Of a stretch of 30,635 nt of DNA, positions 248 through 30,635 are shown one piece after another. This DNA comes from a virus: positions 1 to 30,635 of the IMG/VR virus record IMGVR_UViG_3300037069_001433; one strand, written 5' to 3'. The notes under the pieces are model-generated. The model was not told the origin of the DNA and did not search any database. It saw only the letters and a list, made by a program, of their open reading frames with translations. The position numbers were made by a program, and so were the translations under genes. Numbering within the stretch: the first letter of the stretch is position 1; the number at the start of each line of letters is the position of its first letter.

Positions 248-253
248 CCTTTC

Positions 254-2233
254 TCACACCTCCAGAGATTCTAGGTAGTTGACAGCCTCGCTGAGATCGG
301 TGATCACAGGTGCATCGGGCAGGGCCTTCATGACCCGCCCTCCGTAGTTCTTCGCGGTCTTGCCGTAGAGGCGGCTGTCGAGAATGGCAACGACACCCTG
401 GTCGGACACGGTACGGATCAGCCGACCGTAAGCCTGAGTGAGCTTGAGGATCATCGTCGGGATAGCCATCCCGTAGAAGCCACCCTTAGGAGCCCACTGG
501 CCATTCTTCTTGGTGAGCAAGTTGCAGCGAGCGGTGAAGACCACATCGTTAGGGTTTACGAAAGGAGCCTTGTTGATGACGACCAGGCGAAGTGAATCGC
601 CCTGAATGTCGATACCAGTCATGAAGCTGTCGAGACCGAAAAGGACGCTGTGCTCGTCTGCGTCGAACTTCTCCTTCAGAACCTTGTTCGGCTCATCGCC
701 CTGCTTGAGAGCAACGTGACCCATGTTCGTGATCAGAGGGGCCAGAGAACGGTAAGACTCCTCCATCTCAACTCGACTGGTGAAGAGGAGAAGAGCACGA
801 CCGTTCGATGCGCGAAGCAATTCAGCAGTCGTTGCGATCGAGGAAGAGCGCCACTGGTTGGCCGTCTGACCTGCCGGGTGAGCGATCTGCGGGATGAAAG
901 TCCGGGCCTGGGACTTGAAGTTGAAGGGGGTTCCTGCATCGAAGCTGTCGAACCGATCAACACCCAACTCAGAGGCCATGAAGTCGAAGTTGTCACCTTC
1001 AGCCAAAGTTGCGGAGGTGAATACGACGGGGGCCTTCGTCAACAGATTCTCGCGAAGGAAATCGGAGATGTCCATCGGAGCCCACTTGATGACGTTGCCC
1101 TTCTTACCTTCAGCGATCTCCAGCCAACGGACCATCTCCTCATCCTCTGCAATCAGAACGGCAGTCATCCGGTTCATAGCGTTCTCGATACGACGAACCA
1201 GGCGCTTCTTCTTCTGGCCTGCCTGGTCGTTACCGTGAATCTGGAAGTTCGCAACGCGGGTACGAAGTGTGTCAAGCTCGTTGATCAGACTTTCGATGTG
1301 AGGGGCAAGCTCAACCATGATCGAGGAAGTGAAATCTACGGTCTTGGACCGCTTGTCCTGACGCCGATCGAGTGCACGCTGAACGACATTGAAGAGGTCA
1401 GCGGTGACATCATTGATCTTCATCAGTGCATTCCGGTCTGCCAGGAACTTAGCAACCTCAGTGCCCAGTCGATGGTAGCTACCAGAGGTCACCTCGCCAC
1501 CGAGAGCATTGGTCACGAAGGAGTTCATCTCATGAGCCTCATCAACGACCACACCACCGAAGTCAGGGAGAATACCCGTCACTGCGTGATCTGGTACGCC
1601 AGCGGCCTTCTGAGCTGCCTTTACGGCCAGGTCTGCGGCAAGCACCGCATGGTTGACGACTACGACGTTCGATTCCTTCGCCCGATCCTTGGCAAGCTCC
1701 GAGAAGCAGACCTTTCCGAATGGGCACTCCTTCTTACCGGGGCATTCGTCGCTGGTGGTAGAGAGCATCGCCTGCTCCTGAGGAGCGAGAGAAAGCTGAA
1801 GGTCAACGATCTCACCAGAGAAGTCGCTGTTGTCGTCCATCTCCCGGCGAAGATCGTTCTTCAGAGCGAGATTTTCAAGTTCATCGACCTTGGCAAGGCA
1901 GACGTAGTTGCTGCGACCCTTCAGAACAGTGAACTTGAAATCTCCGAGAACGTTCTGGAGGAAGGGAAGATCCTTACTTGCAAGCTGATCCTGGAGAGCC
2001 TTCGTGGCGGTTGCGTAGATGCCGGGCTTGCCTGTTTCCTTGGAACGCCGAATCAGACCGACGACGCCGACGAAAGACTTTCCGGTTCCACAACCGGCCT
2101 GAGCGAACAGGTGGCGCGAGTCGCGGAATGCGGTTTCTACCTGAGTTGCCAGGTGGTCCTGGTTGACACGCGGCTGGTAGCCCGGGAGCGAGATCTGAAA
2201 CTTCTCAGTCGCTTCTTTCCAGGTGAACTTCAC
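254..2233 (-). CDS. DinG/XPD-type Fe-S ATP-dependent helicase
   Basis: A 659-residue superfamily 2 helicase of the XPD/DinG type, which unwinds DNA 5' to 3' using ATP. Visible motifs in order are Walker A AQAGCGTGKS at residues 44-53, a four-cysteine Fe-S cluster set at C112, C164, C170 and C176, VVNHAVLAADL near 192, the DEAH box at 231-234, a VFTSATL motif in the second RecA domain, and a C-terminal QAYGRLIR (motif VI). The length is typical for the family. The start is GTG, chosen because GAAGGAG sits 5 bases upstream. It probably acts in phage DNA replication, recombination or repair. Hand-counted lines within the gene run 53-62% GC against 38-42% in tail genes, so it may have a separate origin. 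The family call is firm; the exact role is inferred. Confidence 0.93.
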   Translation of the reverse strand: MKFTWKEATEKFQISLPGYQPRVNQDHLATQVETAFRDSRHLFAQAGCGTGKSFVGVVGLIRRSKETGKPGIYATATKALQDQLASKDLPFLQNVLGDFKFTVLKGRSNYVCLAKVDELENLALKNDLRREMDDNSDFSGEIVDLQLSLAPQEQAMLSTTSDECPGKKECPFGKVCFSELAKDRAKESNVVVVNHAVLAADLAVKAAQKAAGVPDHAVTGILPDFGGVVVDEAHEMNSFVTNALGGEVTSGSYHRLGTEVAKFLADRNALMKINDVTADLFNVVQRALDRRQDKRSKTVDFTSSIMVELAPHIESLINELDTLRTRVANFQIHGNDQAGQKKKRLVRRIENAMNRMTAVLIAEDEEMVRWLEIAEGKKGNVIKWAPMDISDFLRENLLTKAPVVFTSATLAEGDNFDFMASELGVDRFDSFDAGTPFNFKSQARTFIPQIAHPAGQTANQWRSSSIATTAELLRASNGRALLLFTSRVEMEESYRSLAPLITNMGHVALKQGDEPNKVLKEKFDADEHSVLFGLDSFMTGIDIQGDSLRLVVINKAPFVNPNDVVFTARCNLLTKKNGQWAPKGGFYGMAIPTMILKLTQAYGRLIRTVSDQGVVAILDSRLYGKTAKNYGGRVMKALPDAPVITDLSEAVNYLESLEV

Positions 2234-2271
2234 GGTAACTCCTTCAGTAGGTATATGGACACTCTAGCAGC

Positions 2272-2841
2272 CTAGACCGAGGATAACAAATCCTCTTCTA
2301 GTTCCGAGAAATTCTTCCGAAAAAGGCTCAGAGTATCCAGAACTTCGCGAGCTACCTGCCCAGGAAGTACTTCGAGTTGTCCGTTTTTGAACCAAATCAA
2401 ATTTTTGTAAGCCACGTTCTTAGGGCACTTATTGCATCCGTACCTTTTGCCCGACTGTGGGGCACGTTGGCGACCGCCGATATGTCCGTGTTTGGAACAG
2501 ACAGCCTTCCAAAGGAAGGGGATAGGCTTCACGATGGTCTCGGTATCGAAGCAACGCTTACCGTTTCCACCGAGTTGCCGGAACTTAGCTGACCACACTC
2601 GATCGTGCTTGTGTCCTTGAGTTAAGGCATGAGCCACCTCATGACGAATGGTATCTAGGCTTCCCTCGTAGGTGCGAGATGCCAATAGGTTACGAGAGAA
2701 CGATAACGTTTTAGTCTCGTAATCACATTGACCTGCCCTTCTGAGGGCATTATCTAGCTTCACTGACCAGCCTATGAGGCCATGAGAGAAGATCAAACCG
2801 TCAGCGATTTTGAAGACCTGAGCCTGCGTCATGTGTTCCAT
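2272..2841 (-). CDS. SprT-like zinc metalloprotease
   Basis: A 189-residue protein with the zincin signature RHEVAH at residues 66-71 (His67, Glu68, His71), followed by a HKHD segment whose His77 or His79 would be the third zinc ligand, then W83. This is the SprT/Spartan-like arrangement. The C-terminal part carries a zinc-ribbon-like set of C115-x2-H118 and C136-x2-C139. Spartan proteins cleave DNA-protein crosslinks. A phage version next to a DinG helicase could serve DNA repair or removal of bound host proteins, but that is inference. No good Shine-Dalgarno is visible before M1 or the alternative M4. The upstream gene stops 11 bases before the ATG, so reinitiation is plausible. Confidence 0.87.
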   Translation of the reverse strand: MEHMTQAQVFKIADGLIFSHGLIGWSVKLDNALRRAGQCDYETKTLSFSRNLLASRTYEGSLDTIRHEVAHALTQGHKHDRVWSAKFRQLGGNGKRCFDTETIVKPIPFLWKAVCSKHGHIGGRQRAPQSGKRYGCNKCPKNVAYKNLIWFKNGQLEVLPGQVAREVLDTLSLFRKNFSELEEDLLSSV

Positions 2842-2852
2842 GAGATGGGAGT

Positions 2853-3068
2853 CTAGCCGAAGTCTTGGTTCGGATCAACCCTCAACCCACCTGGATTCAG
2901 ATAGTCAGTGATAGCATCCCCAACCTGGCGGCCTACATCATTCTGTCCAGCTAACAGTTCCGGGTAGGATTCATCTACAGCGGTAGCATAACCATGCTTC
3001 CTGCCGAGAACATATCCCGAACTAAAGATTCTCTTTAGGTATTCTTCGTTATCTTTCGGTGCAGTCAT
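2853..3068 (-). CDS. Hypothetical small protein, leaderless start (71 aa)
   Basis: I do not recognise this 71-residue protein. It has a helical N-terminal half (EEYLKRIFSSGYVLGRKHGY) and no cysteines or membrane segments. The frame is open back to a GTG at 3128, which would add 20 residues. I prefer the ATG at 3068 because a promoter-like TTGACG-N18-TACACT lies inside the extension and its -10 ends 6 bases before this ATG, so the extension would be upstream of the transcript start. No usable Shine-Dalgarno is present (the nearest, AGGTGGGG, is 14 bases away), which fits a leaderless mRNA. The SprT-like gene follows 11 bases later and probably shares the transcript. Confidence 0.65.
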   Translation of the reverse strand: MTAPKDNEEYLKRIFSSGYVLGRKHGYATAVDESYPELLAGQNDVGRQVGDAITDYLNPGGLRVDPNQDFG

Positions 3069-3619: not shown

Positions 3620-6600
3620 TTACTTATTTGAAATAGTCTTCTTGAAATTGAACCACCAAGTACGAGGGATCGGCTTATTCCACACCATCCATTTAGGATC
3701 TCTGTCTATCGGACCATAATGATCTGAAGGCACAAGGTTAGGTCCCAGGGGAAGTTGGGTAGGTCTAGGGGGAATACCCTGAGACATACCCTGATAGACT
3801 GGTCTGATAGTTAGATTATTGATCGTAACATCTCCGGAATAGGAAGTTACCCTCCATACTAGATTGTTATAGTTAGTAAGCCTATTTGGGAATATCATTA
3901 TTCCTCTTGGATTATTACGGATATCCCCCGAATTCCAGAATGTCAATCCACCATCGCAAGAGAATGCCCATACAACAGGCTCCCAGAACAGTGCAACACT
4001 TTGAGTGAACCAGTAGTCAAGAGTAGGAGTCTTCTGAATCAATCGAATGATTATATTCTGTACGGATGCTCTTGTTGTCAACGACAACTGATCATAGGTT
4101 CTGGTACCACCATAGGTAACATTTCCCCAAGTTACATTACTTGTATTAGTTGCCAATAGTGAAGCATCTGGATTCCAAGAGAATCCTTCGATGATCGTGT
4201 ATTGACCGGCACTATTTCCGTTATTTGCTCCACCGACTCCTCTTACTGTGGTGTCCCATATCCCAATTCCTGAGTAGACTCCGACAACCGCATTAGATTG
4301 AAGGACAACAATAGCTTGAGTATCGTTGACTCCAATTGACCATGTTGTCTTAAAGCTTGAAGAAAGTGTCTGAGCAGAGATGTACCTGACAGCTATCGGG
4401 CCTGCGGTTGCAGATGCGAACATGCTTGTCTTTACTGTAGATCCAGGATTATTGATAGGATCATAGTAGCCTGCGGATAGGAGGATCGTTCCATCTGCTT
4501 GCAGCGTAAGGATCTTACCTGAAACCGGATTGTAGTTCAGGTATGCGATAGCCTGTTGACTCGTGGCTAGTCCTGATGCTACCTGAGTTACATTGAAATC
4601 CATTGATCCATATTGATCTTTTACATCCACGACAGCCATCGTTCCGGGGATAGTGAATGCACCACCTGGAGCTAATGATGAGGCAGCAGTAGCATTAAGC
4701 ACAGTCGAATACGTAAATGCTCCAGCATACTCCCATCTTTTTGTTGGTAACTGATCCCAGAAGATGCTTCCTGTTCCTGAATCAACCAACTGAGAGGTCT
4801 GAGGAACTGGTAGTGCTAGCTGTTGGTTTACAAGGTTGATCTGGACTGGACTTGGATTCCAAGCAAAATAGGTAAAGGTCTGATTAGCAGCTCCCATGAG
4901 TGCTCTTACTGTTCCGAATGATCTTGTCCCGGAATAGGTCTGTACCCAAGTTTCAGTAGCTGTTGGTGTGTCATTGTTACGAGTGAATACAAGTAACGAA
5001 TACGGTCTAACGGTTGGATCTGCACCAGCTACTTGTTGACCCGCTGGAACGATGGATGTAGGCATGAACTTGAACCTGTAACGGACACCATTCGCTAGAG
5101 CAGTTGTCATAGTTAAAAGGGTAGCTGAGATATTAGTTGACTCGATAGTGGAGTCGTTCATCATCAGCCAACCACCGAGGTCAATAACTGGCACGGCAGC
5201 ACTATGGGTTGCGGTTGTCACGGCCGTTCCTATGGTGACATCAAGGGTCCCCCATGGAGTTCCGGTATCTACCTCGCTTCGGTTACCTGTAGAAACCGCT
5301 TTAGCGGCGCTAGAAGCAACGCTGAGCGACGTTCCTCCGCTTGGAGTGTTCCAGGACTGGCCAGAGGTGAAAAAGCCCAGAGAGGAGCTGTCAGCCCTTT
5401 GGAAGTTATCGCTCCAGGAAGACCAGATCTTCTTTCCGATGAGATCTCCCCATGTGATACCTACTTTTCCTCCGAAGTCCTTGATATCTACAGACGTATA
5501 CCACTCCTTCACTTCGTTTTTTCCGACATTGGATTGCTGTTCGGCCAGGATTCCTCCCGAGTCTGCATCGATTATCTGAATCCATAGAGGTTGTGTAAGA
5601 CTTTGAGTTGCTGTAACTCTAGCGGCAGCGTGAACTTTTCCACCAGGAGGTAATGGAATCGGACTCGACTGGATACCTCCTGTAAAACTCGGTGCCTGTA
5701 ATCCTACAGAGAGATCCCTATAGGAAACCGCTGTGGGGTGAGAGGAATCAGCATAGTTGTAAAGAACATTGATAGCTGTCGAAGTAGGAATGGAGCCCGT
5801 TGACACAATACCTATTGTCGTCACCGAATTAGGGTTAGAACCATTCGTAGCAGAAAGGCTATAGTCAGTTCCAAGTACGTAGTTGATCGTTCCATCGGCT
5901 GATTGAACCTGGATAGAGGTTTGCTGAATACCTTGATGTGTAAGTACTGAAGTAGAAGATGTTGTTGGGAATGTAACCGAATCAGTAGATGATTGATATC
6001 CCTTCCCTACCGCTAATCCTCCCCAGGTTACGTAGTTGATCGAGATGTCTCCCCAGAAACCTTGATTAGTCTGTCGAGAAACAAGAAGAGCTGTATCTCC
6101 ACCAGAAAGTGGTTGTGTCAGACCAAGTATCTTTCCGTCACCCTGCGATGACCAATTGGTTACCTGAGATGGTGAATATGAGGGATCACTGAATTCACCA
6201 TTAGTATTTATTTGCTTATTATCAGTCTGTTGTGATGCAAACTGAATTCCTCTTATTGGTCTCTGAGTAGGAATAAGTACAGAAGTAGTTCTGGCATAAG
6301 AGGAGGATCTGTTTGTTCCACTGTAAAGACCACCACCTGCGGGAATATACCAGTTACCCTGGTTGACTCCAGTTCCATCTGTGAATGACTCCTCTATAAA
6401 GCTATGATCCTGAGGAGAAGACTTCACCGTTCTGGAAAATTGGATTTGCCTTAGACCTGTGTAGTAACTGATATTCGAAGTTTGTCTTATATTCGAGATT
6501 GTGTAGTTGTGCTTTCCGACCTTATTAAACCTGGGAGAGGTTCTATCGGGATGCCATTGACGATACTTCCACTCATTACCGAGGGTACGCAAACGCAACT

Positions 6601-8542
6601 GAGTTTCATAATCTTCAGATACATAAACTTCTGTAGTCGTGAATCCAGTATCTGTCTGACCGGTTCCAATTTGGGTGGGAGCATCATTGAAGGACATCGA
6701 ATTAGCCAATGAAATTTGAACATTGGTTCCCATATCATCTACAGACGACCTATCTCCATCATTGTCGGAGAATTGCTGAATGACTTCTGGAGGGAAGGTC
6801 TTTACGGTACGTTCAACGGGAATGAATTTCTCATTGACTTCAGCACGAAGATTAGTTATTTCTAAATTCCAGAACTTAGCTTTAGTAGGAGGCAATTGCA
6901 TATTACCCCTATGTAATTCATACTCTCTGGGAATAGGGGTCCAGCTCATGTTTTCGTAATTGAAGGCTGGACCGCCTACCATACCTGTAGCTGAGGTATT
7001 TGAGATTAACGAGGAATCAAAGCGGAGAAGGGCATTCTTTGAAGCAACATCCGAGCCTGTTTGGAATCTCGGGATTTTTGAGAATTTCGAAGGTCCCTGA
7101 AGGAACGAGTCATCTATCCAACTTTCTTGTTTTAGAATGAATGCAGATATTACGCTATTGGCGAATTTAGTATTCGTTATATCGGTTCCTATAAAAATTT
7201 GAGCTGGAAGGTTGGAACCGATATTAACCGATGCTGTAATATCAGAGGTAGTTACTATTCCGCTTTGTTGTACACTTAAGTGTAACATTCCGTTATGGTA
7301 AGCACCAATTAGCTGAATAGGATTAGTTGAATCAAGTGACACAGCTAATAGGTTCGTGTCATTAGAGATTGTTTTTAGGAAGACCCCAGTTGAATTGAAT
7401 CCTATCTGGAAACTACCGCAACCAAAAAGAATGTGGTCATTGCCATCTGCTGATTGAGAAAAACCTAATGTAAACTCGATCCCTATCCACCATGGTTGTG
7501 ATGGATCGAATGAGATATATCCATTGTTTACCTGTAAGAAAGAAGCATCTCCATAATTACCTAAATTAATATTCCCAGCAGAGTTGATGCCCGCATTGGA
7601 GAAGGATGCTTGAGTTGTCGTTAATGCCTTTCTGGATGATACAAACTCCCCGCCAACTGCATCGTTCGAATAGTAGAGGGTTACATGACTGCCATCATAG
7701 AGAGGATCAATAAAGATCCTATCGATGATCTGGCCATCGCCAGTCTTATCTCTTAGGTCCGCATAGAAGTTGACCACAGCACGAGGAAAAGGTTGTGGCT
7801 CAGATTTCCAAATCAATGGAGCAGATGCATCAGTATTAAATAGGATACTATTAGCGAAATTGGTCTTCTTAGCGAAACCTATGTTGGAGCCGAATACGTC
7901 TGCTGAGTTAGCGAATACCTTCTCATTCGCTGGTGATCCATCTTCTAGGATTGATCTAGGAATATCATTCTCTGAAGAGATTTCATATCCGATGTAGATG
8001 TTCTGAAGGGCAACTGAATAAGATATTGCATTTCCTGAACTATCTAATGGAGGTTGTCCATTAGGGTTTCTTTGAATTATGAATCTTATCTTTTGCATTT
8101 CATCGGGTGCCACATTAAATTGCAACCTTTCCCAATGTCCATCATAATCATGTTGAGGATGATTATGTCCCTCGACTGTATTTGGAGAAGGAAGAATAGC
8201 AGGGAAAGATCGAAGTATCTCTAATGAGATCGGATTAGAAGTAACAGGATCAATTACTGGGAGCCAATTGTTCCCAGAATCTCTAGTATATTGTATGGTT
8301 ATTGTCGAAGGGAATCTAGAGACATCGAATGAGATACGATTAGTTAAGGAGGCAGTAGAAAAATTCATCTCCAGTACCTCTTGGGTCGTATCATTAATGA
8401 AATGCTTTTCTGATGCCCAGAATCTATCAGAACTTGATGAATTATTAGGGACAGCAACAGTTGGCCGATTGAGATTAAGTGCCTGGCTAACCGAAGATGC
8501 TTCTGATGAGCCTACAAACAAATTTGATAGTGGTTTAGTCAT
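3620..8542 (-). CDS. Large tail fibre / receptor-binding-type protein (1640 aa)
   Basis: The largest gene in the window, directly after the gpI-position gene (2-base gap) and last in the late operon, where P2-like phages place the fibre. It is beta-rich and modular. Residues 1-200 form a discoidin-like region including DGHWERLQF. About 325-485 is LamG/concanavalin-like, around W351-W352. About 855-935 is an about 75-residue module also present in the tail sheath. About 1045-1240 begins DNFQRADSSSLG, typical of concanavalin-type lectin domains. About 1265-1455 looks like a second copy, since both copies end in a VR...WNP segment. The C-terminal about 180 residues are another beta domain. The likely role is a baseplate-attached fibre or host-surface binder; this is inferred from domains and position. 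No enzymatic motif was recognised. Confidence 0.82.
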   Translation of the reverse strand: MTKPLSNLFVGSSEASSVSQALNLNRPTVAVPNNSSSSDRFWASEKHFINDTTQEVLEMNFSTASLTNRISFDVSRFPSTITIQYTRDSGNNWLPVIDPVTSNPISLEILRSFPAILPSPNTVEGHNHPQHDYDGHWERLQFNVAPDEMQKIRFIIQRNPNGQPPLDSSGNAISYSVALQNIYIGYEISSENDIPRSILEDGSPANEKVFANSADVFGSNIGFAKKTNFANSILFNTDASAPLIWKSEPQPFPRAVVNFYADLRDKTGDGQIIDRIFIDPLYDGSHVTLYYSNDAVGGEFVSSRKALTTTQASFSNAGINSAGNINLGNYGDASFLQVNNGYISFDPSQPWWIGIEFTLGFSQSADGNDHILFGCGSFQIGFNSTGVFLKTISNDTNLLAVSLDSTNPIQLIGAYHNGMLHLSVQQSGIVTTSDITASVNIGSNLPAQIFIGTDITNTKFANSVISAFILKQESWIDDSFLQGPSKFSKIPRFQTGSDVASKNALLRFDSSLISNTSATGMVGGPAFNYENMSWTPIPREYELHRGNMQLPPTKAKFWNLEITNLRAEVNEKFIPVERTVKTFPPEVIQQFSDNDGDRSSVDDMGTNVQISLANSMSFNDAPTQIGTGQTDTGFTTTEVYVSEDYETQLRLRTLGNEWKYRQWHPDRTSPRFNKVGKHNYTISNIRQTSNISYYTGLRQIQFSRTVKSSPQDHSFIEESFTDGTGVNQGNWYIPAGGGLYSGTNRSSSYARTTSVLIPTQRPIRGIQFASQQTDNKQINTNGEFSDPSYSPSQVTNWSSQGDGKILGLTQPLSGGDTALLVSRQTNQGFWGDISINYVTWGGLAVGKGYQSSTDSVTFPTTSSTSVLTHQGIQQTSIQVQSADGTINYVLGTDYSLSATNGSNPNSVTTIGIVSTGSIPTSTAINVLYNYADSSHPTAVSYRDLSVGLQAPSFTGGIQSSPIPLPPGGKVHAAARVTATQSLTQPLWIQIIDADSGGILAEQQSNVGKNEVKEWYTSVDIKDFGGKVGITWGDLIGKKIWSSWSDNFQRADSSSLGFFTSGQSWNTPSGGTSLSVASSAAKAVSTGNRSEVDTGTPWGTLDVTIGTAVTTATHSAAVPVIDLGGWLMMNDSTIESTNISATLLTMTTALANGVRYRFKFMPTSIVPAGQQVAGADPTVRPYSLLVFTRNNDTPTATETWVQTYSGTRSFGTVRALMGAANQTFTYFAWNPSPVQINLVNQQLALPVPQTSQLVDSGTGSIFWDQLPTKRWEYAGAFTYSTVLNATAASSLAPGGAFTIPGTMAVVDVKDQYGSMDFNVTQVASGLATSQQAIAYLNYNPVSGKILTLQADGTILLSAGYYDPINNPGSTVKTSMFASATAGPIAVRYISAQTLSSSFKTTWSIGVNDTQAIVVLQSNAVVGVYSGIGIWDTTVRGVGGANNGNSAGQYTIIEGFSWNPDASLLATNTSNVTWGNVTYGGTRTYDQLSLTTRASVQNIIIRLIQKTPTLDYWFTQSVALFWEPVVWAFSCDGGLTFWNSGDIRNNPRGIMIFPNRLTNYNNLVWRVTSYSGDVTINNLTIRPVYQGMSQGIPPRPTQLPLGPNLVPSDHYGPIDRDPKWMVWNKPIPRTWWFNFKKTISNK
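5725..5985 (-). other. Shared beta module within the 1640-aa fibre gene
   Basis: Encodes fibre residues about 855-940: HQGIQQTSI (Gln870), VLGTDYSLSAT, SVTTIGIVS, VLYNYA. By eye about 39 of 77 aligned positions are identical to the sheath module. Confidence 0.75.
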
Positions 8543-9848: not shown

Positions 9849-11672
9849 TTAGGTGCGGAAGGTATTTCTTGCCTTGACTGTATAGTTGATATTGTAAAGG
9901 ACCGGATATGTTCTATCATCGAAATAGACATCATTCGGTCTACCTGAGATATTGAAGGTGGTGATTAATGATCCAGTTGATTGCACCTGTTGTATCCCAT
10001 ATGTAGTCGAGTTATCGACACTATTTGTTAGTCTGATATTATCGACACCTGGGACATTAGATGCCACATTGTGAATATCTGAAACTTGAAGAGCTGAATT
10101 GAATCCTAGATTAGCCATCCATGCACTTATCGCATTGTTTACTGCTGTATTCACCGAACTTGGCGAATAGTTAGGAGAGTATACGATGGCGAAATTCAAT
10201 TGCATATAGGCAATCTTCCCTGCATGGATTTGTGCATCTGTTCCCACCAATCTCCAGTTGGCAAGATTTTGAGAGACAAGCAATGGAACCTGATTGAAGG
10301 TATATGTCATATTCCATGTTGAATTATTGGCGATTGGGTGCGCAGTATTCTGAGCAGAAGCCATTTTGAATACTAATCCAAATTGTGAAGTGGTGCTATA
10401 ACCAAATGCATCATCTTGATGAACAATATCGTAGTCTGTTCCTATGGTGTAGGTGAATCCACCGACAACTATTGAGGAGGGGATACTAAGAATAGGCCCA
10501 TATGCAAGAGGAACGAACACATCATTAACTGCTGGATTGACACCGGCTAAGGTAACGAACCTTGTATTTAACAAGGAGTCTCCTGCCGTTGCATTGAATT
10601 TAAGCGTATTTACATAATAGATTGGTTGCACAGCTAATCCAGAAGAGTTTCCGTTCACATACACATCTACCCTATTGTTCACTACTCCTTGTCCCCAACG
10701 ACTACCGAATGGATCATTCCTACTAGAAATAGGAACGTAGTCATATTCAAGGTCATAGACACCATCGGGCATTCCAGTTCCCACTGAGGTTATGGTTAAG
10801 GTAGCAGGGACAACTCCATTATTTACAGTAACGGTATAGTTAGACTTAGGGCTTAGAATAGCTCCGGTGCTAATAGAGGGTCCTACAAATACTGATGATG
10901 CGAAATTGTATGAAGAGCTTGTAAGAGATGAAGTAGCTGTCCCAGATACCACTTGTATTTGTTCTACATTATGCTTCGTTGATCCTAGAATATTAACTTG
11001 GGTCACTGCGTTTGAGGAAGGATCTGTAGGATCGGCCAGCGTTTGTAGACAGATCCCCCTGTACATCGAGTCAGTTCCGGCAAGGTTACGAAAGGCTGTT
11101 GTCTTAAACCTATTCCTCAGTTGGGCATCCGTCTCAGAAAGAGTTCCACCAATAAGAGGTTGAGCATTGGTCACATTAGAAATACCATCAATGTTGGTGA
11201 TAAGAGTGGTTAAGGTGCCAGCTAATAGGTTCCCTTGTGGACCAGCAGTAATTGCCTGGACGGGTACATCAACTCCAGTTTGACCAATAGGAATAATGGC
11301 AGCTACCGTTGTCTGAACGTAGACCGGTGGGGTTGACAGAGAAACGATTTGAGTACCGGGAGGAATAACTGCTGACTTTGTTGCTGCAATGGCAGTAGAA
11401 CGACTGAATGTTATAACTCCAGAAGCTCTCTGTCCAGGAAGTCTTGTAAGGCTGAAGTTGCTAACAAAGTCATCCAGATCTCCACCAGTTTTAGAATCAA
11501 CATCATAGGTGTATTGAAGTAGGTAACTATCAACGGTTTGTTGAGAGATCTGATCGGATACTGCATCTATGATCTTACGAAGCGGAGAACCAATAGAGGT
11601 ATCCAATTCAGGGTCGGAAAGGTAGAGAGAGTTAACTATCCTTGATGCAATATCATTGGTAGTGGTTGGCAT
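9849..11672 (-). CDS. Baseplate wedge protein, gpJ/gp6-like
   Basis: A 607-residue member of the baseplate J family (P2 gpJ, T4 gp6), which forms the wedge ring around the tail tip. The N-terminal part has the familiar order: IASRIVNSLYLSDP, SPLRKIIDAVSDQIS, GGDLDDFVSNFSLTR, then a strand region with IPPGTQIVS. Around residues 160-200 it has a GGTLSETDAQLRNRFKTTAF segment matching the family hallmark of Asn/Pro then GG..E.D..LR.RF. It is longer than P2 gpJ because of beta modules at about 260-320 and 385-475. The second, with IGTDYDIV at about 410, resembles the module shared by the sheath and fibre. It follows the gp25-like gene by 8 bases. High confidence in the family. Confidence 0.92.
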   Translation of the reverse strand: MPTTTNDIASRIVNSLYLSDPELDTSIGSPLRKIIDAVSDQISQQTVDSYLLQYTYDVDSKTGGDLDDFVSNFSLTRLPGQRASGVITFSRSTAIAATKSAVIPPGTQIVSLSTPPVYVQTTVAAIIPIGQTGVDVPVQAITAGPQGNLLAGTLTTLITNIDGISNVTNAQPLIGGTLSETDAQLRNRFKTTAFRNLAGTDSMYRGICLQTLADPTDPSSNAVTQVNILGSTKHNVEQIQVVSGTATSSLTSSSYNFASSVFVGPSISTGAILSPKSNYTVTVNNGVVPATLTITSVGTGMPDGVYDLEYDYVPISSRNDPFGSRWGQGVVNNRVDVYVNGNSSGLAVQPIYYVNTLKFNATAGDSLLNTRFVTLAGVNPAVNDVFVPLAYGPILSIPSSIVVGGFTYTIGTDYDIVHQDDAFGYSTTSQFGLVFKMASAQNTAHPIANNSTWNMTYTFNQVPLLVSQNLANWRLVGTDAQIHAGKIAYMQLNFAIVYSPNYSPSSVNTAVNNAISAWMANLGFNSALQVSDIHNVASNVPGVDNIRLTNSVDNSTTYGIQQVQSTGSLITTFNISGRPNDVYFDDRTYPVLYNINYTVKARNTFRT

Positions 11673-21000: not shown

Positions 21001-22452
21001 TTATCCTGTTGCCGCTGCGGCGTCGGTTGAAGTTGTAATATTGCCAGTACTCAAATCAAGAGTGAACTTAACCGTAATGTAATTCAAAGGATAGGTAGGC
21101 CTATAAGAGAAAATACATTCAATAACTGTAGGGTCTCCAGTTGGAAGGAATTGCTGTCTTACGGCTACATTGTTGTAACCCTGAATTGTGTCACTACTCA
21201 ATGCGGTTTCCAAGGCACCCGTAATAATTCCTTTTACAGAAAGTGGTGTCGTTGCAGTAATTGGAGTACCGATCAAAGCTGCCTGGTCAAGTGACTGCTG
21301 TACCAAAGTGAATAGGGCATCCTGACATCTAACAATTGATAGTTCTCGATTGACAACGGAAGACATATCTGTGGTTACGCCATGTCTGAATACCAACTGT
21401 AGTTGCCTATTAGGTTCGATTACTGCTACACCCTTAGATGACCAGTAATCTCTGTTTGTCTTTGTCATAGATGACAATACCGAAGAGCTAATGCTAGAGA
21501 TTGAGCGTATCTGTCTACGAGTAAGACCTGTATTGATAGGCTGATTAGCTAGGAGCCCTGCTGCGGCTGCGGCTGCGTAACTTCCACCCAGTTGAATAGT
21601 GTTATTCAAAATAGAATTGAAGTAATTGAATTGGTTAGGCCACATCAATGAAACACGACGATAGACGAACATAGAAGAAACGATATCTGGAGTCACAGAG
21701 CTACTAAACGTCTCTGGTAGCCCGACTAATGCAACTCGGGGGAATCCCGCTACATCTGTGTTCTGGAGATGCTGAACCAACCCTGATACGTAAGGAGAGA
21801 ATGCTGTGTCATCAGCGATAGTTCCCGAGTCAAAAACAGGAACAATGAGATCGATATCGAAATTGTTTGCGGTTAATCCGTATGCAGAATTAAACTGATC
21901 TGAAAGTGATCCCAATCCATTGAGAGTAACTGTATAGATCTGATTAGCACCATTTTCAAAGGCAATTTGTGCAGCCAACGAAATAGGAGACTGGACCTCT
22001 CCAGTTGTTGGATTGAATGGGTTTCCGTATACGTTGATGAGGGACGCAAAATCTCCGAACTGGTTAAGGCCAAAGTAATTTGCATTAGCATAGTTGTAGG
22101 TGACTGTGATAGGAACTCCCGCAGGGAGTGTTCCTGAGCTAACGATAGAAAGGGTAGTGGTTGAATCAGGTTGAGAAGAATCGGTAGCTGACTTGGTATA
22201 GTCGGTAGTCAGAGCATACGTCGTAGATCCATTGGAAACTACAATAGAATTCTGCTGAATCCCCTGTTGTAGAAGGGTGATCGTTGAGGTATTATTAGGG
22301 AAAGTAATTTTCTCGGAGAAGGTTTGGTAACCTAGACCTGGGCCGATTAAGCACACGACTGTAGGAGAGACGCCTACAGCACCGGATACTGAACTTGTAT
22401 CGGCACTTACATAGACGCCAGGAGATACGTACCCAGCTCTGAAATCAACCAT
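21001..22452 (-). CDS. Tail sheath protein
   Basis: A 483-residue contractile tail sheath. The N-terminal YVSPGVYVS at 8-16 is the common sheath opening. The core has AAAAAAGLLANQPINTGLT, then a DYWSSKGVAVIEP segment, and the C-terminal domain has VNRELSIVRCQDALFTLVQQ and ends in strands. Residues about 48-122 are an extra beta module, inserted after the first strands, that is shared with the 1640-aa fibre protein. In other sheaths, such insertions lie on the outer surface. The gene is followed after 22 bases by the tail tube. It is preceded by AGAGAGG, 9 bases from the ATG, and a 79-base gap without a gene. This gene identifies the phage as contractile. Confidence 0.95.
   Translation of the reverse strand: MVDFRAGYVSPGVYVSADTSSVSGAVGVSPTVVCLIGPGLGYQTFSEKITFPNNTSTITLLQQGIQQNSIVVSNGSTTYALTTDYTKSATDSSQPDSTTTLSIVSSGTLPAGVPITVTYNYANANYFGLNQFGDFASLINVYGNPFNPTTGEVQSPISLAAQIAFENGANQIYTVTLNGLGSLSDQFNSAYGLTANNFDIDLIVPVFDSGTIADDTAFSPYVSGLVQHLQNTDVAGFPRVALVGLPETFSSSVTPDIVSSMFVYRRVSLMWPNQFNYFNSILNNTIQLGGSYAAAAAAGLLANQPINTGLTRRQIRSISSISSSVLSSMTKTNRDYWSSKGVAVIEPNRQLQLVFRHGVTTDMSSVVNRELSIVRCQDALFTLVQQSLDQAALIGTPITATTPLSVKGIITGALETALSSDTIQGYNNVAVRQQFLPTGDPTVIECIFSYRPTYPLNYITVKFTLDLSTGNITTSTDAAAATG
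22087..22314 (-). other. Shared beta module within the sheath gene
   Basis: Encodes sheath residues about 48-122. It has QQGIQQNSI, Y.LTTDY..SAT, STTTLSIVS and VTYNYA, the same series as fibre residues about 855-935. See the finding on the shared module. Confidence 0.75.
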
Positions 22453-23206: not shown

Positions 23207-23863
23207 TTATGACTTTGTTGAAATTGGATATGTTGCGGCATCGATAAGCAAAACTTCTGAGGAAAGGATTCCCCACATATCAGCCGTATCTTCCATAGCT
23301 TCATTGAGATATTGCCTACCCTCTATTCCTGGGTGTCGCCATCTGACTCCCACATTACCTGCTGCAATTCTTCCTCCACTTCCGCGAGGATTACCTATAC
23401 GGCCAGGGGCTCCAGGGAATGATCTAGGTACTGAGGTAATCTTCCCATTACGAACTACATTCTTTCTTTCCCCCTTATTAGATGCTTTCCTGAAGATAAG
23501 GGTTTGTCTTCTTCCATCTACAGTGATACGAGTCTTGGCTTTCTTGTTCTCTTTCGCCAGTTTGCCGTCCTCATCAGAGACCCACATAGGGATCACCCTT
23601 CCGGCTAACGAATTCATTGTGAAAGGTCTAGTACCCCTTTCAAGGAACCAAACCTTCTTATCCGGGAAATAGATACCAAAGAAGTTATTGCCGAACACGG
23701 GAGTTAAAGTTTGGGATAAGGCTCCCGTAATCTTAGGCATTCGATCCTTAGCAGCTTGCACCGCTGCATTAGCTAGCATCTCCGTATAAGTGATGTCATG
23801 AGTATCATCCAACATCATGATCATCCTGTCAGGAGCGGTAGTCATCATTCTTTCGGGAATCAT
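23207..23863 (-). CDS. Neck / tail completion protein, HK97 gp10-like
   Basis: A 218-residue protein with the family pattern of HK97 gp10-like neck or tail completion proteins: an N-terminal helix (NAAVQAAKDRMPKITGALSQ), then FLERGTRPFTMN, a basic middle region, and a late RWRHPGIEGRQYLNEAM helix. The HPG motif near the C-terminus is common in this family. It probably joins head and tail. It starts in a TAATG overlap with the 770-aa gene. The middle (about 90-150) is unusually rich in Lys and Arg. Confidence 0.82.
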   Translation of the reverse strand: MIPERMMTTAPDRMIMMLDDTHDITYTEMLANAAVQAAKDRMPKITGALSQTLTPVFGNNFFGIYFPDKKVWFLERGTRPFTMNSLAGRVIPMWVSDEDGKLAKENKKAKTRITVDGRRQTLIFRKASNKGERKNVVRNGKITSVPRSFPGAPGRIGNPRGSGGRIAAGNVGVRWRHPGIEGRQYLNEAMEDTADMWGILSSEVLLIDAATYPISTKS

Positions 23864-26175
23864 TATATTTTTGGTCCTCCTTGATCAGGGTATGGAGTAG
23901 GAATACCCTCTCTTACTCTTTCTGGAAGCGTATTTCCCCATGTCAATGGATATGATATCGTAGAAGGGGTAATTGAATAGTCGGGGATCAAGGGTGCACC
24001 TATGAAAGGGGTCCATCCGCTTATTGATACTGTAGATTTAATTATGAATGGAATGATATTCAATAGTCCTTGACCGGACATGAGAACAGCAGCTCGGATT
24101 ATTGTTTGAATGATTCCGAATATTGCTACCGTTCCAATTCCTGCCATCATTATTTGGCTAGAAATCGTTCCTCTTCCTGAAACTCCGGTTATTGAATTTC
24201 CAGACATTGTGATTTGCCCAATTGCAACCCTAAGCCCAATTACCACCAAGGTTGAGATTGCATTCATCAAGATAGCATTGGAATTTACATCTAATCCAGA
24301 TATGGAGAGTACTCCACTACCCAACATAGCTATAACGCCAGAGTGGGAGATCAGATTAAGAACGACCAGAGAGCTTGATCCGGTCATAGCTACTGAGGCA
24401 GCCTTCACGATCAAAACGGAAGAGATGGATAGAGATGATGCACCAGCCACTAAAACTGCCCCAGATTTGATCTGAGAGCCACCTACGGCCACTGTTGAGG
24501 TACCTGTCATCGTCACTGAGCTAGATTGAATTCCTGAAATAGCTACGACCAGTACACCAGAACCGATAAATGATTCTGTGCCTGATGAGATTGTTGAAAA
24601 TCCAGATACTGTTGATGTGCTCGATCCGACCATAGCGATAGTAGCGATATGGGTAATTTGACCGGCTAATGTCATTATGCCGGAACCCGCTAGAGAAATA
24701 GTCGAAGAGATAAGCAAAGATCCCAGAACAGCCACGGTTCCTGAGCCCGCCATTGCGAGTATCCCGATTACTGTGTGGGAGGCAAGGATCGTTGTCGTAC
24801 CCAATCCAGCCATCGCCAATGCACCCGAGATCGTCTTTAGACCTACAACGACTAGCGTGCTCGACCCCACCATAGCAAAAGCATTCGAATCCTGTAGGAA
24901 TCCGGTAACGATAAGATTTCCGGAACCTGTCATAGCTACGACAGATGATATCGATTGAAATCCTGTAGAAGTCATTATTCCGGTTCCGACCATCGCTACT
25001 GAAGCAACTGCGCCTGAAGTGCCCACAATGCTTGTGACACCAGAGGCAACCATTGTCACTATGCCAGACTCAGTTACTAGTCCAGTAATTGCCAGTATCG
25101 AAGAACCAGTCATCGCGACGGAACCAGAGACCGTCTTAGATCCAGATAGAACGATTGTGCCAGAACCCACCATGGAGACAGTAGATGGAATCGTATCTGC
25201 TGCTGAAACAGACATCGTTCCACTGTCGGCCATGGCTACTGTGCCTATAACAGAGTTTAGGGCGATGATGCCCGTAGTTCCAGAGCTAGTCATTACGACT
25301 GTTCCAGAAATCGTGTCTGTTCCGATAACGCCTGTGGTTGAGGTGCCAGCCATGGTCACTGCACTGGAATCAGTTAGATTTCCCGTAACACTAAGTGTTC
25401 CCGATCCATCCATTGAAATTCCGGCAGTATCTACAGGGGGTCCTACCTGCGAATCCGTAGCACGAAGAGTTGTCTGGAATCGACCAAGACGAAGCTGAGG
25501 TCCTCGACCGGGCGCATGAAGAGTCGATTGAGTAGCTGGACCAGGGGCTGCCTGAACTTCAACAAGACAGCAGACACCAACGGTACTTGTAGATGATCCG
25601 TAGGTTACATTATTTCCAGTAGCTGTAGATTGGATTCCCTCATAGCCGTCTCCATTTGTAGTATCAGAGAAAGATCCATTGGCTGTAGTATTAGCCAATA
25701 ATGTAGGGATGGTTGAGCTACTGAAGTTTGAAACTCCACCGCGCATGATGTTTCCAGGGCCAACACTGAGTGTTGCCTGAAGTGTTCCTGCACTTGTGCG
25801 CGTAACACCATTAGTTCTTGCAGAACTTTGAATGGGGTTTGCACCAAGGAAACACTCTGTTGTGAGCAGCCCACCTCCAGAGGTACCAGAGGTGACAGTA
25901 GAAGTAAGAGAGATTGTGCCTGGTGCAGTATCGTAATATCTACACCATACTTCAACACAGTTCGTGTTAGCGGCCGATTGACGACGAACAAGAGTGTACG
26001 TATTGGTTCCATCAGAAACAGTAGTATTTACGGCAACAGCCCCCGAAGAGACAATAACAGTAAGATACACAAAGGTTCTAGCCTGGGGGGCGAATGAAGC
26101 CGTTGACTTCGACGTACCGAAGGCAGTCGTTGTAACTATGGGTGGCTGATTCGCGGTATCATTGATGATCGCCAC
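23863..26175 (-). CDS. Virion adhesin-like protein with 20-residue repeats (770 aa)
   Basis: Residues 1-220 are a beta-sandwich domain with a FGTSKSTASFAPQARTFVYL opening, TVSDGTNTYTLVRR and VEVWCRYYDTAPGTISL, a type I recall from phage and bacterial surface proteins. After a Pro/Arg/Gln linker (about 220-253), residues 254-718 are about 23 copies of a 20-residue repeat with consensus x-M-x-G-S-G-T-L-x-V-x-G then six variable residues and S-G-x-V. A beta-solenoid or trimeric fibre shaft is likely. The last 45 residues are Pro-rich. The start is GTG with GAGGTAAACC upstream. It sits before the neck gene, so it could be a head- or neck-attached fibre. Function is inferred. Confidence 0.8.
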   Translation of the reverse strand: MAIINDTANQPPIVTTTAFGTSKSTASFAPQARTFVYLTVIVSSGAVAVNTTVSDGTNTYTLVRRQSAANTNCVEVWCRYYDTAPGTISLTSTVTSGTSGGGLLTTECFLGANPIQSSARTNGVTRTSAGTLQATLSVGPGNIMRGGVSNFSSSTIPTLLANTTANGSFSDTTNGDGYEGIQSTATGNNVTYGSSTSTVGVCCLVEVQAAPGPATQSTLHAPGRGPQLRLGRFQTTLRATDSQVGPPVDTAGISMDGSGTLSVTGNLTDSSAVTMAGTSTTGVIGTDTISGTVVMTSSGTTGIIALNSVIGTVAMADSGTMSVSAADTIPSTVSMVGSGTIVLSGSKTVSGSVAMTGSSILAITGLVTESGIVTMVASGVTSIVGTSGAVASVAMVGTGIMTSTGFQSISSVVAMTGSGNLIVTGFLQDSNAFAMVGSSTLVVVGLKTISGALAMAGLGTTTILASHTVIGILAMAGSGTVAVLGSLLISSTISLAGSGIMTLAGQITHIATIAMVGSSTSTVSGFSTISSGTESFIGSGVLVVAISGIQSSSVTMTGTSTVAVGGSQIKSGAVLVAGASSLSISSVLIVKAASVAMTGSSSLVVLNLISHSGVIAMLGSGVLSISGLDVNSNAILMNAISTLVVIGLRVAIGQITMSGNSITGVSGRGTISSQIMMAGIGTVAIFGIIQTIIRAAVLMSGQGLLNIIPFIIKSTVSISGWTPFIGAPLIPDYSITPSTISYPLTWGNTLPERVREGIPTPYPDQGGPKI
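24025..25416 (-). repeat. Tandem 60-bp/20-residue repeat array
   Basis: About 23 degenerate units plus a partial one. Nearly all are exactly 20 residues; a few are 21 or 22. The most constant positions are M at 2, G at 4, S/T-G/S at 5-6 and small-hydrophobic alternation at 8-12. At DNA level the repeats are diverged, so the array looks old and under selection for protein structure. Confidence 0.85.
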
Positions 26176-27497: not shown

Positions 27498-28157
27498 TTA
27501 GGTAGTTGGATATGGATATCTGGCAGGTTCGGCGAGGATTCCGGCTAGTTGAGAATCATTGGGAGGGATCATATAAGCAACAGAAGTTTCATCTTCTAAT
27601 TGGCCCATAGCACGAACGTAACCCAAGGCATTATCTTTCTGAGTGGGATGTTCAAAACCTGTTCTCAAGGTTACCCTTTGAGGAGTAGTCAATTGCCATC
27701 GAGAATTATCTTGTCTAAAGACGAAATCTCCAGCTCTGAAACGGAAGTCGCTTGTTGATTCAATACTGACATTCTGGGGATGCGTAACACCCTTAGCACC
27801 TCGTTTCTCTTCATCATCAGAATCAGTGAACACAGCGGGTCTTACAACCTTAGCTCTGACTCCACCGGAAAATGTTGTACCAAAGCATTCTGGGCACTTG
27901 TTCTTGGATGTCTGAACGTATACGTTGGCTTTTCTTGCTTCGAGGTCATTTCCCTTGAAGCCACATCTTTGACAACGAGATACTAATCCATCGTTGAAAT
28001 CCTCTACTGTCCACATAAGAACGAATAGTGCATATTCACCAATAGAATACATTGCCTGATCATGACGATAGGTTTCTTGCTTAACAGCCCAGTCTTTATT
28101 TCCTTCTCTTAGGTAGAATGAAGAATTAGAAAGGCCAATTGGTTTAGGTTGAGTCAT
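27498..28157 (-). CDS. Zinc-ribbon protein in structural operon (219 aa)
   Basis: A 219-residue protein with a zinc-ribbon-type set C62-x2-C65 and C88-x2-C91. It has a mixed N-terminal domain (HDQAMYSIGEYALFVLMWTV) and a beta-rich C-terminal domain (FRFRAGDFVFRQDNSRWQLT). I do not recognise the family. Its first codon overlaps the stop of the glycine-rich gene by one base, and no strong Shine-Dalgarno is visible, so coupling is likely. Its place among virion genes suggests a structural or assembly role. Confidence 0.72.
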   Translation of the reverse strand: MTQPKPIGLSNSSFYLREGNKDWAVKQETYRHDQAMYSIGEYALFVLMWTVEDFNDGLVSRCQRCGFKGNDLEARKANVYVQTSKNKCPECFGTTFSGGVRAKVVRPAVFTDSDDEEKRGAKGVTHPQNVSIESTSDFRFRAGDFVFRQDNSRWQLTTPQRVTLRTGFEHPTQKDNALGYVRAMGQLEDETSVAYMIPPNDSQLAGILAEPARYPYPTT

Positions 28158-30635
28158 TACGGAATCACATTACCTATCGATTTAGTAAATGTAGTATTAC
28201 GAACAGTTCGAGGAATTGGGAAACTACTAGCTTCAAATGACATAGTTGAATTGTTAATTCCCGGAACTACTAGATAAGGTCCTTCAAATATTACTTGTCC
28301 ATCTTTGAATTGAAGTGAAGCATGTGCGACAAGAGGCAGTACTTTATTTTCAACCAATATTCCATCCAACTCTAGAGAGGCCTCGACAGACATAGGAACA
28401 ATGGCTAATAGCTGATTTTGGTTACTTACAGATAGCGCAGCTCTGGTATGCAGAGCAAGAATGGAATCATCTCTTAATGAGACATTCTCTATCAATGATG
28501 CGACAGAGACCAAAGCTAAAGTAGCGATAGGCTTTGAGAGCCCCGCTAAGCTCAATTTTGCCGTGGCAAGCAGTTCTGGATCGGGGTCTAGTAAAAGTCG
28601 CCCAGAATCGATCAGAGAGCCGTGAACGACCATCCCTAGAGAAGGGATGAAGGTCCGTTGGCCACCCGCAATAAGCGAAGCAACAATATGTATCGGTATT
28701 GTTGAGGAAATTCCCTTTTGTGTAACTTCGTTCAGAGATGCCAGAGATACCATGCTTAAATTAGGTCTCAATACAGTAGATCCCGGAATAGAGATCAATG
28801 TTGCCAGAGCAGAAAATGCCTGAGAACCTAGAACCACCTGAATAACCAGAGATGCCTGCGACGAGAATGCAAGCTGAGTAGAATCGACCACCTTGTTCCC
28901 ATTAAGAGAAAGATTACCTACTACTTGCAAGCTTAAAGGATATACTTCGGTTTCTAAACCTAAAGGCGAAAGCGAAGTAACAGCACTCATTATTGAACCT
29001 ACACTGATAGTAGCAACAGGTTGTACCGCTAAAGTAGCTAAACTATTGAAAGCCAAATTCGATAATTTCGTTTCGATCCCAACAGATGAAATTGAAGCTG
29101 TTCCTGCCATTATCGAAGATTGAAAAGTATTCTCTATTCCAGCAATGATCATTCCACTTTGTGCAATCATTGTAGTAGCGGGGGGAGATCCTACAAAGAA
29201 ACTCGAAGCCGAGTAGGGTCCGACCGTGCCTTGAGCATCGACTGTTCTTACTTGCCATTCATAGGCTTGATTGGTGACAAAGGTATTCGCTGCCCAGGTA
29301 TAGGATGTTGCTACACCGGGATCGGTGGAATTATAAACCCAATCTGTATCTGAGCCACCAACAATCCGATACCTTATGTTTGCACTTGATTGCGAGTCTC
29401 CGATATCGGGATCACTGAATGTCCAGTTGAAAATTTGATTGACTGTATTATCGATCGTTGAATTATTGATTGGGTAAGTCAGCGTAGGAGCGTTTGGAGG
29501 CTGATTAGTCCAAAAATCAGAAGCAACAGAGGGACTATATAATCCTTGGGGATCTTGAGCATAGACAAGCAAAGAGTAGTGAGTATTAGGAGAAAGACCG
29601 GTGAGAGTAGCCGAAGCAGACGACCCAACAGTAACGTAACTGGAATAGACATCAGTGTATGTAGCAAAATTATCAGTAGAGTATCTGAATAGAGCCCTTA
29701 CGTTACCACCATCAACATCATTCACTACTGCTGAACAATTGACAGAACCGGTAGATCGAGTGAAGGTTCCCGGAGTTGGCACTATCGCTGTAGGTGTAGC
29801 AGGACTGAGATTAGAGAAGAACTGTACAGAGGCATAACTATTAGAATAAACAATACCATCCCATGCATAAACGCGCATGTAATAATGGGAATCTATAGTT
29901 ACAGGTAGAGACGCTGTTGAAGTACTTCCGCTTACTACCGAGGTTCCCCAGACATCTGTGTAAGAAGCAAAGGTACTATCTGTAGTATATCTAAAGAGTG
30001 CCCTGACATTTCCACCATTAGGATCGACTACAGTAGCAGATGCTGCTACAGAGCTATTTTGATTGGTATGGGTTCCGTAGGCAGGAACGACATTAGTTGG
30101 AGTATTTGGAGGAGTATCAGTAGCAGCAGTATAAGTTATGTTTACATAGCCATTACTGTGAGCTAAAGAAGAGAAACCTGTTGTGCTGGAGGTTGCGCTA
30201 TTCATTCCTCCATAGTAGTTAGAACCACCACCACCACCAGAGACAGCTTGGAATCCAGTAGAACCACCAGCTCCACCACCACCTCCGTGTTGGCCTCCAC
30301 CACCACCTCCACCACCAGCTCCGTCGTAGCCTCCAGTGCTACCACCAGCACCACCAGCACCTACAGTATTGCCAGCTCCACCATAGAATTGAGATCCGGA
30401 AGTACCCGTACCGCCAGCTCCACCGCTACCACCAGATATACCTGGAGCGGGGCCAGCGCCATTATTTCCTCCACCAGCGCCACCAGCAGCAGCACCGCCT
30501 CCACCGCCTCCACCAGCGCCACCAGCAACACAAATACGGGCAGCAGTAGCTCCAGTGTTTGGCCCTCTTATATCGGTAGCTCCACCACCACCGTTCCCAC
30601 CAGTAGAAGCACGAGCGACACCGCCATCGCCGCCA
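28157..30635 (-). CDS. Glycine-rich, Fn3 and repeat tail fibre protein (5' partial)
   Basis: The frame is open to the right edge: 143 codons before the first internal ATG at 30205 are all sense, so the real start is outside the window and at least 825 residues are present. The window starts in a glycine-rich domain with poly-Gly runs, ending at SNGYVNITYT, like Gly-rich tail fibre domains. Three Fn3-like domains follow (about 30112-29812, 29812-29500, 29500-29180). The first two are near-copies, with NVRALFRY in each. Then comes an about 13-unit 20-residue repeat array and a C-terminal unit ending RTVRNTTFTKSIGNVIP. Such modules suit a host-binding or decorating fibre. Function is inferred. 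Confidence 0.85.
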   Translation of the reverse strand, partial: GGDGGVARASTGGNGGGGATDIRGPNTGATAARICVAGGAGGGGGGGAAAGGAGGGNNGAGPAPGISGGSGGAGGTGTSGSQFYGGAGNTVGAGGAGGSTGGYDGAGGGGGGGGQHGGGGGAGGSTGFQAVSGGGGGSNYYGGMNSATSSTTGFSSLAHSNGYVNITYTAATDTPPNTPTNVVPAYGTHTNQNSSVAASATVVDPNGGNVRALFRYTTDSTFASYTDVWGTSVVSGSTSTASLPVTIDSHYYMRVYAWDGIVYSNSYASVQFFSNLSPATPTAIVPTPGTFTRSTGSVNCSAVVNDVDGGNVRALFRYSTDNFATYTDVYSSYVTVGSSASATLTGLSPNTHYSLLVYAQDPQGLYSPSVASDFWTNQPPNAPTLTYPINNSTIDNTVNQIFNWTFSDPDIGDSQSSANIRYRIVGGSDTDWVYNSTDPGVATSYTWAANTFVTNQAYEWQVRTVDAQGTVGPYSASSFFVGSPPATTMIAQSGMIIAGIENTFQSSIMAGTASISSVGIETKLSNLAFNSLATLAVQPVATISVGSIMSAVTSLSPLGLETEVYPLSLQVVGNLSLNGNKVVDSTQLAFSSQASLVIQVVLGSQAFSALATLISIPGSTVLRPNLSMVSLASLNEVTQKGISSTIPIHIVASLIAGGQRTFIPSLGMVVHGSLIDSGRLLLDPDPELLATAKLSLAGLSKPIATLALVSVASLIENVSLRDDSILALHTRAALSVSNQNQLLAIVPMSVEASLELDGILVENKVLPLVAHASLQFKDGQVIFEGPYLVVPGINNSTMSFEASSFPIPRTVRNTTFTKSIGNVIP
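28310..29100 (-). repeat. 20-residue repeat array in glycine-rich/Fn3 protein
   Basis: Units are anchored on ASL-like triplets (ASI, ATL, TSL, GNL, ASL, ATL, ASL, ASL, GSL, AKL, ASL, AAL, ASL, ASL). Successive distances are 20, 20, 20, 21, 17, 21, then 20 for the rest. The pattern is L-x-M/F-x-S/V-x-A-S-L followed by about 11 variable residues. It is highly diverged at DNA level. Confidence 0.8.
30190..30635 (-). repeat. Glycine-codon low-complexity region
   Basis: On the plus strand this is a run of cca/acc triplets; on the coding strand it is GGT/GGA codons with Ala and Ser. It continues to the window edge. Such DNA is prone to slippage, so length may differ between relatives. Confidence 0.8.

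Follow-up and report, generated by a model that had tools for sequence, protein, structure and literature searches.

A likely copy of a tail sheath domain in the putative fibre gene of an uncultured contractile-tailed phage

The stretch of DNA analyzed here, referred to as the window, belongs to an uncultured phage with a contractile tail; it is a linear fragment of 30.6 kb in IMG/VR (IMGVR_UViG_3300037069_001433, positions 1 to 30,635). Its tail genes all lie on the minus strand in the order sheath, tube-like protein, chaperones, tape measure, hub, baseplate, baseplate J, DUF7297-type protein, large minor tail protein and helicase, the same order as in Gordonia phage RedWattleHog, Rhodococcus phage Finch and the Mycobacterium phages Myrna, Phrappuccino and LinStu. 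The sheath gene (21001-22452, minus strand; 483 aa; phrog_2839 tail sheath, E 8e-71) encodes a type 2 sheath, which has a conserved core and one additional beta domain. The large minor tail gene (3620-8542, minus strand; 1640 aa) matches the phrog_2840 minor tail protein over residues 208-592 (E 5e-30) and follows the baseplate J and DUF7297 genes, the position it also has in relatives. Judging from its size and position, this protein, which an earlier note on the same DNA had called a long fibre, is likely a fibre and is referred to as the window fibre below. The phrog_2840 proteins of Bixzunavirus, Myrnavirus, Stormageddonvirus and Finchvirus occupy the same gene position and have a homologous stretch of 600 N-terminal residues, but they are 1093-1282 aa long and lack the sheath domain that is the subject of this work.

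Elsewhere in the window, a 541-codon open frame at 650-2275 (plus strand) lies antisense to a helicase-like gene at 254-2233 (minus strand) and is probably an effect of composition and not a gene. Beside the head and tail genes, 23863-26175 (minus strand) encodes a repetitive virion fibre or decoration protein of 770 aa, in which degenerate repeats of about 25-28 residues (SVAMTGSGTLAVTG...) are numerous. An open-ended 825-aa protein (28157-30634, minus strand), interrupted by the end of the contig, has a glycine-rich start followed by repeated sandwich-like segments (PPNTPTNVVPAYGT..., PATPTAIVPTPGT...).

Comparison of the two window proteins by BLASTP aligned sheath residues 39-126 (22075-22338, minus strand) with fibre residues 846-935 (5738-6007, minus strand), with 43 of 90 positions identical (48%), 62 of 90 positive and an E-value of 8e-20. 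The earlier note had counted 39 of about 77 identical residues by hand for a shorter sheath segment (22087-22314, minus strand; residues 47-122), a count that agrees with the 39 of 80 found by TBLASTN, and the homology reaches about eight residues further upstream (GxGYQ...TFP). When the whole window was searched by TBLASTN, only the sheath and the fibre matched the module, at 70.5 bits as opposed to 20 bits for the next match. Both segments are rich in serine and threonine, as would be expected if two Ser/Thr-rich beta proteins resembled each other by chance or composition. However, the Smith-Waterman score of sheath against fibre was 222 whereas 300 shuffles gave a mean of 58 and a maximum of 96, and a profile built from nine other sheaths recognized, across all frames, the window sheath with an E-value of 5e-9 and the fibre with one of 7e-6. 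Together with the BLASTP E-value and a matching indel in the fibres of relatives (see below), these results rule out a chance resemblance, the probability of which is practically nil. Thus, the module similarity described in the earlier note is real, and both the pairwise alignment and the profile search that it had proposed place this similarity well above background. In the nine annotated loci and the window, this profile, made from sheaths of other phages only, matched the sheaths and the window fibre alone, with baseplate J next at an E-value of at least 0.02.

The identities shared by the two copies fall into distinct groups and do not reflect low complexity or composition. Of 43 identical residues in 88 aligned columns, 15 occupy positions conserved throughout the sheath family (G-Y, L...GI, V, Y...DY, G and V.Y.Y), as maintenance of the fold would give, while 17 are private to the window pair, being rare or absent in other sheaths. 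At two of the strongly conserved positions both window copies depart in the same way: I912 replaces an arginine found in 83% of sheaths, and A931 replaces a threonine found in 96%.

The identity of the window sheath to sheaths annotated in myophages of Gordonia, Rhodococcus and Mycobacterium is 28-33%, with gene order conserved. We found the domain at the same place in the sheath in all nine annotated relatives examined. Among the complete IMG/VR sheaths of the family, a domain profile missed a single one, from locus L013, which does carry the domain, with longer loops. In a TBLASTN search of 50,697 annotated phage records, the sheath module matched actinophage sheaths and, weakly, one hypothetical protein of a Rhizobium phage. 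By sequence comparison, then, the sheath copy is a standard additional domain of about 90 residues that is ancestral in this sheath family. Rather than an unusual extra surface module, it is a domain present in essentially all complete orthologous sheaths. An AlphaFold2 model of the sheath, based on 30 aligned sheaths, has a pLDDT of 81 and places six beta strands (residues 43-50, 57-63, 71-73, 85-89, 98-103 and 114-121) ahead of the alpha/beta core. In Foldseek this model matched the sheath in the neck-tail structure of phage 812 (E 2.5e-17), and further sheath-containing matches included Desulfitobacterium DSY3957 and contractile injection systems, among others.

The assignment fits what has been described for related sheaths. 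The 482-aa sheath of Mycobacterium phage Phabba, an orthologue that is 29% identical to the window sheath over its whole length, is classed as type 2, with a core and one additional domain (PMC9230969); in both the Phabba-type and the window sheath, a single beta-sandwich domain is inserted in the N-terminal part. That paper describes the additional sheath domain as commonly an Ig-like beta-sandwich that faces away from the tube (Evseev et al. 2022, PMC9230969). Sheaths of Pupper, Skog, LinStu, Tonenili and L043 contain a further insert of about 95 residues within the domain. This nested gain lies in the first loop of the domain in Bixzunavirus- and Pupper-type sheaths (L008, L010, L011, L012 and L043), consistent with the type 3 label given to Bixzunavirus (PMC9230969).

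The segment in the fibre is recognizable as sheath-type without its partner in the window. Searched alone, its best PHROG was the tail sheath family phrog_2839 (E 7e-7). It also matched phrog_807, a major tail protein with an Ig-like domain (E 9e-4), to which 4 of 25 members of the domain family gave a match. Among these 25 members there was no match to the Pfam Ig-like or FN3 families (Big_1, Big_2, I-set, FN3) beyond scattered chance-level scores, one of them Fn3-like (E 0.045), and neither Pfam, a sequence search of solved structures nor Foldseek against the PDB supplied a named family. Because of the lack of a Pfam match, we refer to a sheath-type beta-sandwich and not to a formal member of an Ig family. 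The fibre module gave zero TBLASTN matches in the same 50,697 annotated phage records. When modeled with AlphaFold2, the fibre copy formed six strands, mostly with pLDDT above 90, that pair one to one with those of the sheath model. The fold predictions proposed in the earlier note thus reveal no difference between the two segments, but sheath sequences were included in the alignment for the fibre model, which makes this agreement a demonstration of compatibility and not an independent test of the fold. One of the viral proteins whose structures matched the fibre model is the 70 kDa structural protein of Bixzunavirus I3, which has the size of a sheath and which we take to be the I3 sheath. Matches in the PDB (8vbx, 8ck1, 8i4m and 9jz0), which bear on a possible likeness to the N-terminal tail-anchoring domain of T7-type fibres, were weak, with E-values of 0.08-1.6, none below 0.001, and query TM-scores of 0.38-0.49.

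Both copies keep the conserved positions and loop lengths of the family, and from their sequences the fibre domain most likely folds and is maintained. At the DNA level the two copies are 60, 72 and 36% identical at codon positions 1, 2 and 3, respectively; third positions are thus close to random, and the same codon is used at 19 of the 43 identical residues. The G+C content and GC3 of the insert equal those of the rest of the fibre gene. Together these values indicate an old copy whose protein sequence has been conserved, and an insertion that has left no scars in the DNA.

To compare the fibre gene with its relatives, we used IMG/VR loci found by alignment-based scans. When IMG/VR was scanned with a single sequence, either the window sheath or the fibre module, there was no match other than to the same phage (L003, which differs at 2 of 4923 bases). 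Two scans of fibres covered 26 and 46 loci, which overlap in part and include some incomplete loci. Apart from duplicates of the window phage, the domain was absent from all of the related fibres scored, about 60 in number. Among the nearest relatives, full-length fibres (32-50% identical) match the window fibre on either side of the domain, and most have 1-9 residues where the window fibre has about 91. In the L013 genome, which has a close sheath and the fibre L103/L119, the BLASTP alignment covers window fibre residues 1-847 and resumes over 939-1635, with no more than one residue separating the two parts. The L116 fibre (40% identical) likewise passes from 846 to 939 with a single residue between, and a similarly short join is present in the fibres of L117, L118, L121, L122, L123, L124, L138 and L142. 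A multiple alignment of eight fibres, including L104 (the same fibre as L140), shows the gap directly. The L103/L119 and L116 joins define an inserted stretch of 91 codons, fibre residues 848-938 (5729-6001, minus strand; edges within a few residues). On this comparison the fibre copy is a late, lineage-specific insertion, with edges uncertain by a few residues. The fibres that lack the domain at a collinear site rule out its being ancestral to both genes.

One relative departs from this pattern. In the L115 fibre, whose N-terminal half is 50% identical, the insertion site is occupied by an unrelated stretch of about 25 residues. A search of L115 for a remnant of the domain found nine residues that match the sheath locally (p 0.012 by shuffling, two tests) and none that match the fibre copy, and this match is unconvincing as a remnant. 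The 25 unrelated residues leave some likelihood to an older insertion that was partly lost in L115. The surrounding part of the fibre, residues about 790-940, contains other inserts in relatives: besides the one of about 25 residues in L115, the insert in the phrog_2840 proteins of Myrna, LinStu, Phrappuccino and Pupper is a different one, a domain of about 120 residues that is W-rich and, by eye, CBM-like. This region looks like a hot spot for the gain of domains.

To place the fibre copy among sheath domains, we built domain trees from 42-47 sequences and about 106 columns, with several long branches. The fibre copy was sister to the window sheath with support of 98/94, 96/86 and 96/83, the last after removal of four long branches. 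Outside the domain, the sheaths nearest to that of the window are L160 (59% identical) and L013 (49%); the L160 sheath lies on one contig with the L116 fibre, which is without the insert. A clade of the window sheath and L160 that leaves out the fibre copy was rejected (p-AU 0.015 and 0.0015), as was one of the window sheath, L160 and L013 without the fibre copy (p-AU 0.043). A clade of the fibre copy, the window sheath and L160 was rejected in one reduced set (p 0.011), while a clade of all four, the two window copies with L160 and L013, was not rejected in the full set (p 0.30). The simplest reading of these sequence relationships is that the copy was made from the sheath of this lineage after its split from L160/L116. 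Since the four-member clade is not rejected, the donor may have been a very close phage rather than the same genome; a later conversion of the sheath domain is also possible. The suggestion in the earlier note of recombination between tail genes is therefore supported, and can be given a direction, from sheath to fibre, because the domain is ancestral in the sheath and lineage-specific in the fibre, and the fibre copy is closest to its own sheath.

A different origin of the likeness would be a later transfer in reverse, in which the window sheath had its domain replaced or converted, with the fibre copy as one conceivable template, and the resemblance would reflect gene conversion. Such an event would account for the drop in identity between the window and L160 sheaths from 59% outside the domain to 37% inside it (residual -2.2 s.d.), for the failure of the domain tree, unlike the backbone tree, to join these two sheaths, and for a short loop found in both window copies but longer in L160, L013 and L014-L016. 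However, residuals as large or larger occur in other sheath pairs (L048, L013/L160), the four-member clade is not rejected in the full set, and third codon positions of the two copies are dissimilar. The discordance is suggestive yet within the range of other pairs, and we consider replacement of the sheath domain very improbable.

Alternatively, mobile Ig-like domains could form a common pool from which each gene acquired its copy separately, with the window's own sheath not the source. Exchange of this kind has been documented (Fraser 2006, cited by PMC9230969 and PMC9022992), and related domains are present in other proteins. In locus L057 (IMGVR_UViG_3300031718_000001), a 924-aa virion protein encoded upstream of the sheath at 100-2871 (plus strand) contains two clear copies of a sheath-type domain (residues 197-257 and 459-527) and a doubtful third. 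In comparison with the window fibre, this is another gene with several, more diverged copies, which may or may not derive from its own sheath; as a second, independent carrier other than a sheath among the loci retrieved, it indicates that the domain has moved more than once. The baseplate J proteins of relatives (L097:1054-3246 and L080:2719-4551) weakly match the domain profile in two stretches each (E 8e-5 to 0.05), and residues of about 400-460 of the window baseplate J (9849-11672, minus strand) are similar by eye; baseplate J possibly contains a distant version of the domain. These copies, the weak baseplate J matches and the match to phrog_807 would all fit a shared pool. On the other hand, the supported sister relationship of the fibre copy to the window sheath, the 17 private common residues, the tail sheath as best PHROG of the fibre copy and the inheritance of the sheath copy through the whole family make two independent acquisitions quite unlikely. 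In a search of 34 related virus records, the fibre copy matched sheaths and one other protein.

We conclude that a copy of the whole sheath domain, about 91 codons, very probably entered the fibre gene of this lineage by recombination and gave the fibre an extra beta-domain. The sheath of this phage has the universal core and one additional beta-sandwich domain, predicted to be six-stranded. The sequences show that, after the fibre lineage had separated from L116, L117, L118 and L119, a copy of about 91 codons covering the whole domain was inserted in frame within a short fibre segment between residues 847 and 939. Illegitimate recombination, either between two genes of the same phage or between two very close phages in one cell, probably brought this about. 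If a domain is self-contained and the two ends of its chain are near each other, it would presumably be tolerated at a domain junction, leaving the rest of the fibre undisturbed.

What the domain does in the fibre can be addressed more tentatively. The copy may serve as an extra exposed beta-domain that lengthens the shaft and perhaps makes weak contacts with the cell surface, a role we regard as possible although somewhat short of an even chance; it might alternatively act as a spacer. For Ig-like domains of virions, adhesion is the function most often proposed (PMC9230969, PMC9022992). The earlier note had also raised a common surface interaction of the two modules, either weak sugar binding, which is unsupported, or docking of the fibre along the sheath, which is possible but unsupported. 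In one form of this idea, which concerns function and is compatible with an origin of the copy from the sheath, the fibre copy was kept because it packs on the sheath lattice or on the domain copies there, with the fibre folding back to dock along the tail before contraction. Fibre and sheath have the domain in common, the additional domains of sheaths point away from the tube (PMC9230969), and several of the structures weakly matched by the fibre model in the PDB come from T7-like phages, as nozzle-fibre or tail-fibre complexes. However, relatives with long fibres manage without the domain, the PDB matches have E-values of at least 0.08, and the 15 of 43 identities conserved in all sheaths are explained by the fold, so that packing on the sheath seems unlikely. 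A fibre copy that works as a docking handle, replacing or pairing with the sheath domain on the tail surface and linking release of the fibre to contraction, is more doubtful still.

That Ig-like domains move among the virion proteins of phages was described years ago (Fraser et al. 2006, cited by both PMC9022992 and PMC9230969). PMC9022992 lists five classes of virion protein, among them tail fibres, baseplate and tail tube but not the sheath, and sheath domains are covered by PMC9230969. The main text of the latter, as searched, mentions no tail fibre and thus describes no fibre copy of the additional domain. No report of a phage fibre carrying a domain of its own sheath was found in the literature searched, which was that outside subscription journals. 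Like Ig-like domains, the domain described here is a mobile beta-sandwich of the virion genes, about 90 residues long. It differs in having no Pfam Ig match and in that the donor (the sheath of this phage or of one very close to it), the recipient site and the direction can all be named.

Thus, the window provides a well-polarized case of known domain traffic among tail proteins, one that is clean and not revolutionary. Beta-sandwich domains are common on phage virions, while donor, recipient and direction are seldom nameable, and the case adds a route from tail sheath to fibre to the known traffic of Ig-like domains. It also cautions against annotating genes from domain content alone, since a portion of a fibre could then be taken for a sheath. 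Should the domain bind or dock, the pair of copies would offer a natural test of the role of additional sheath domains.
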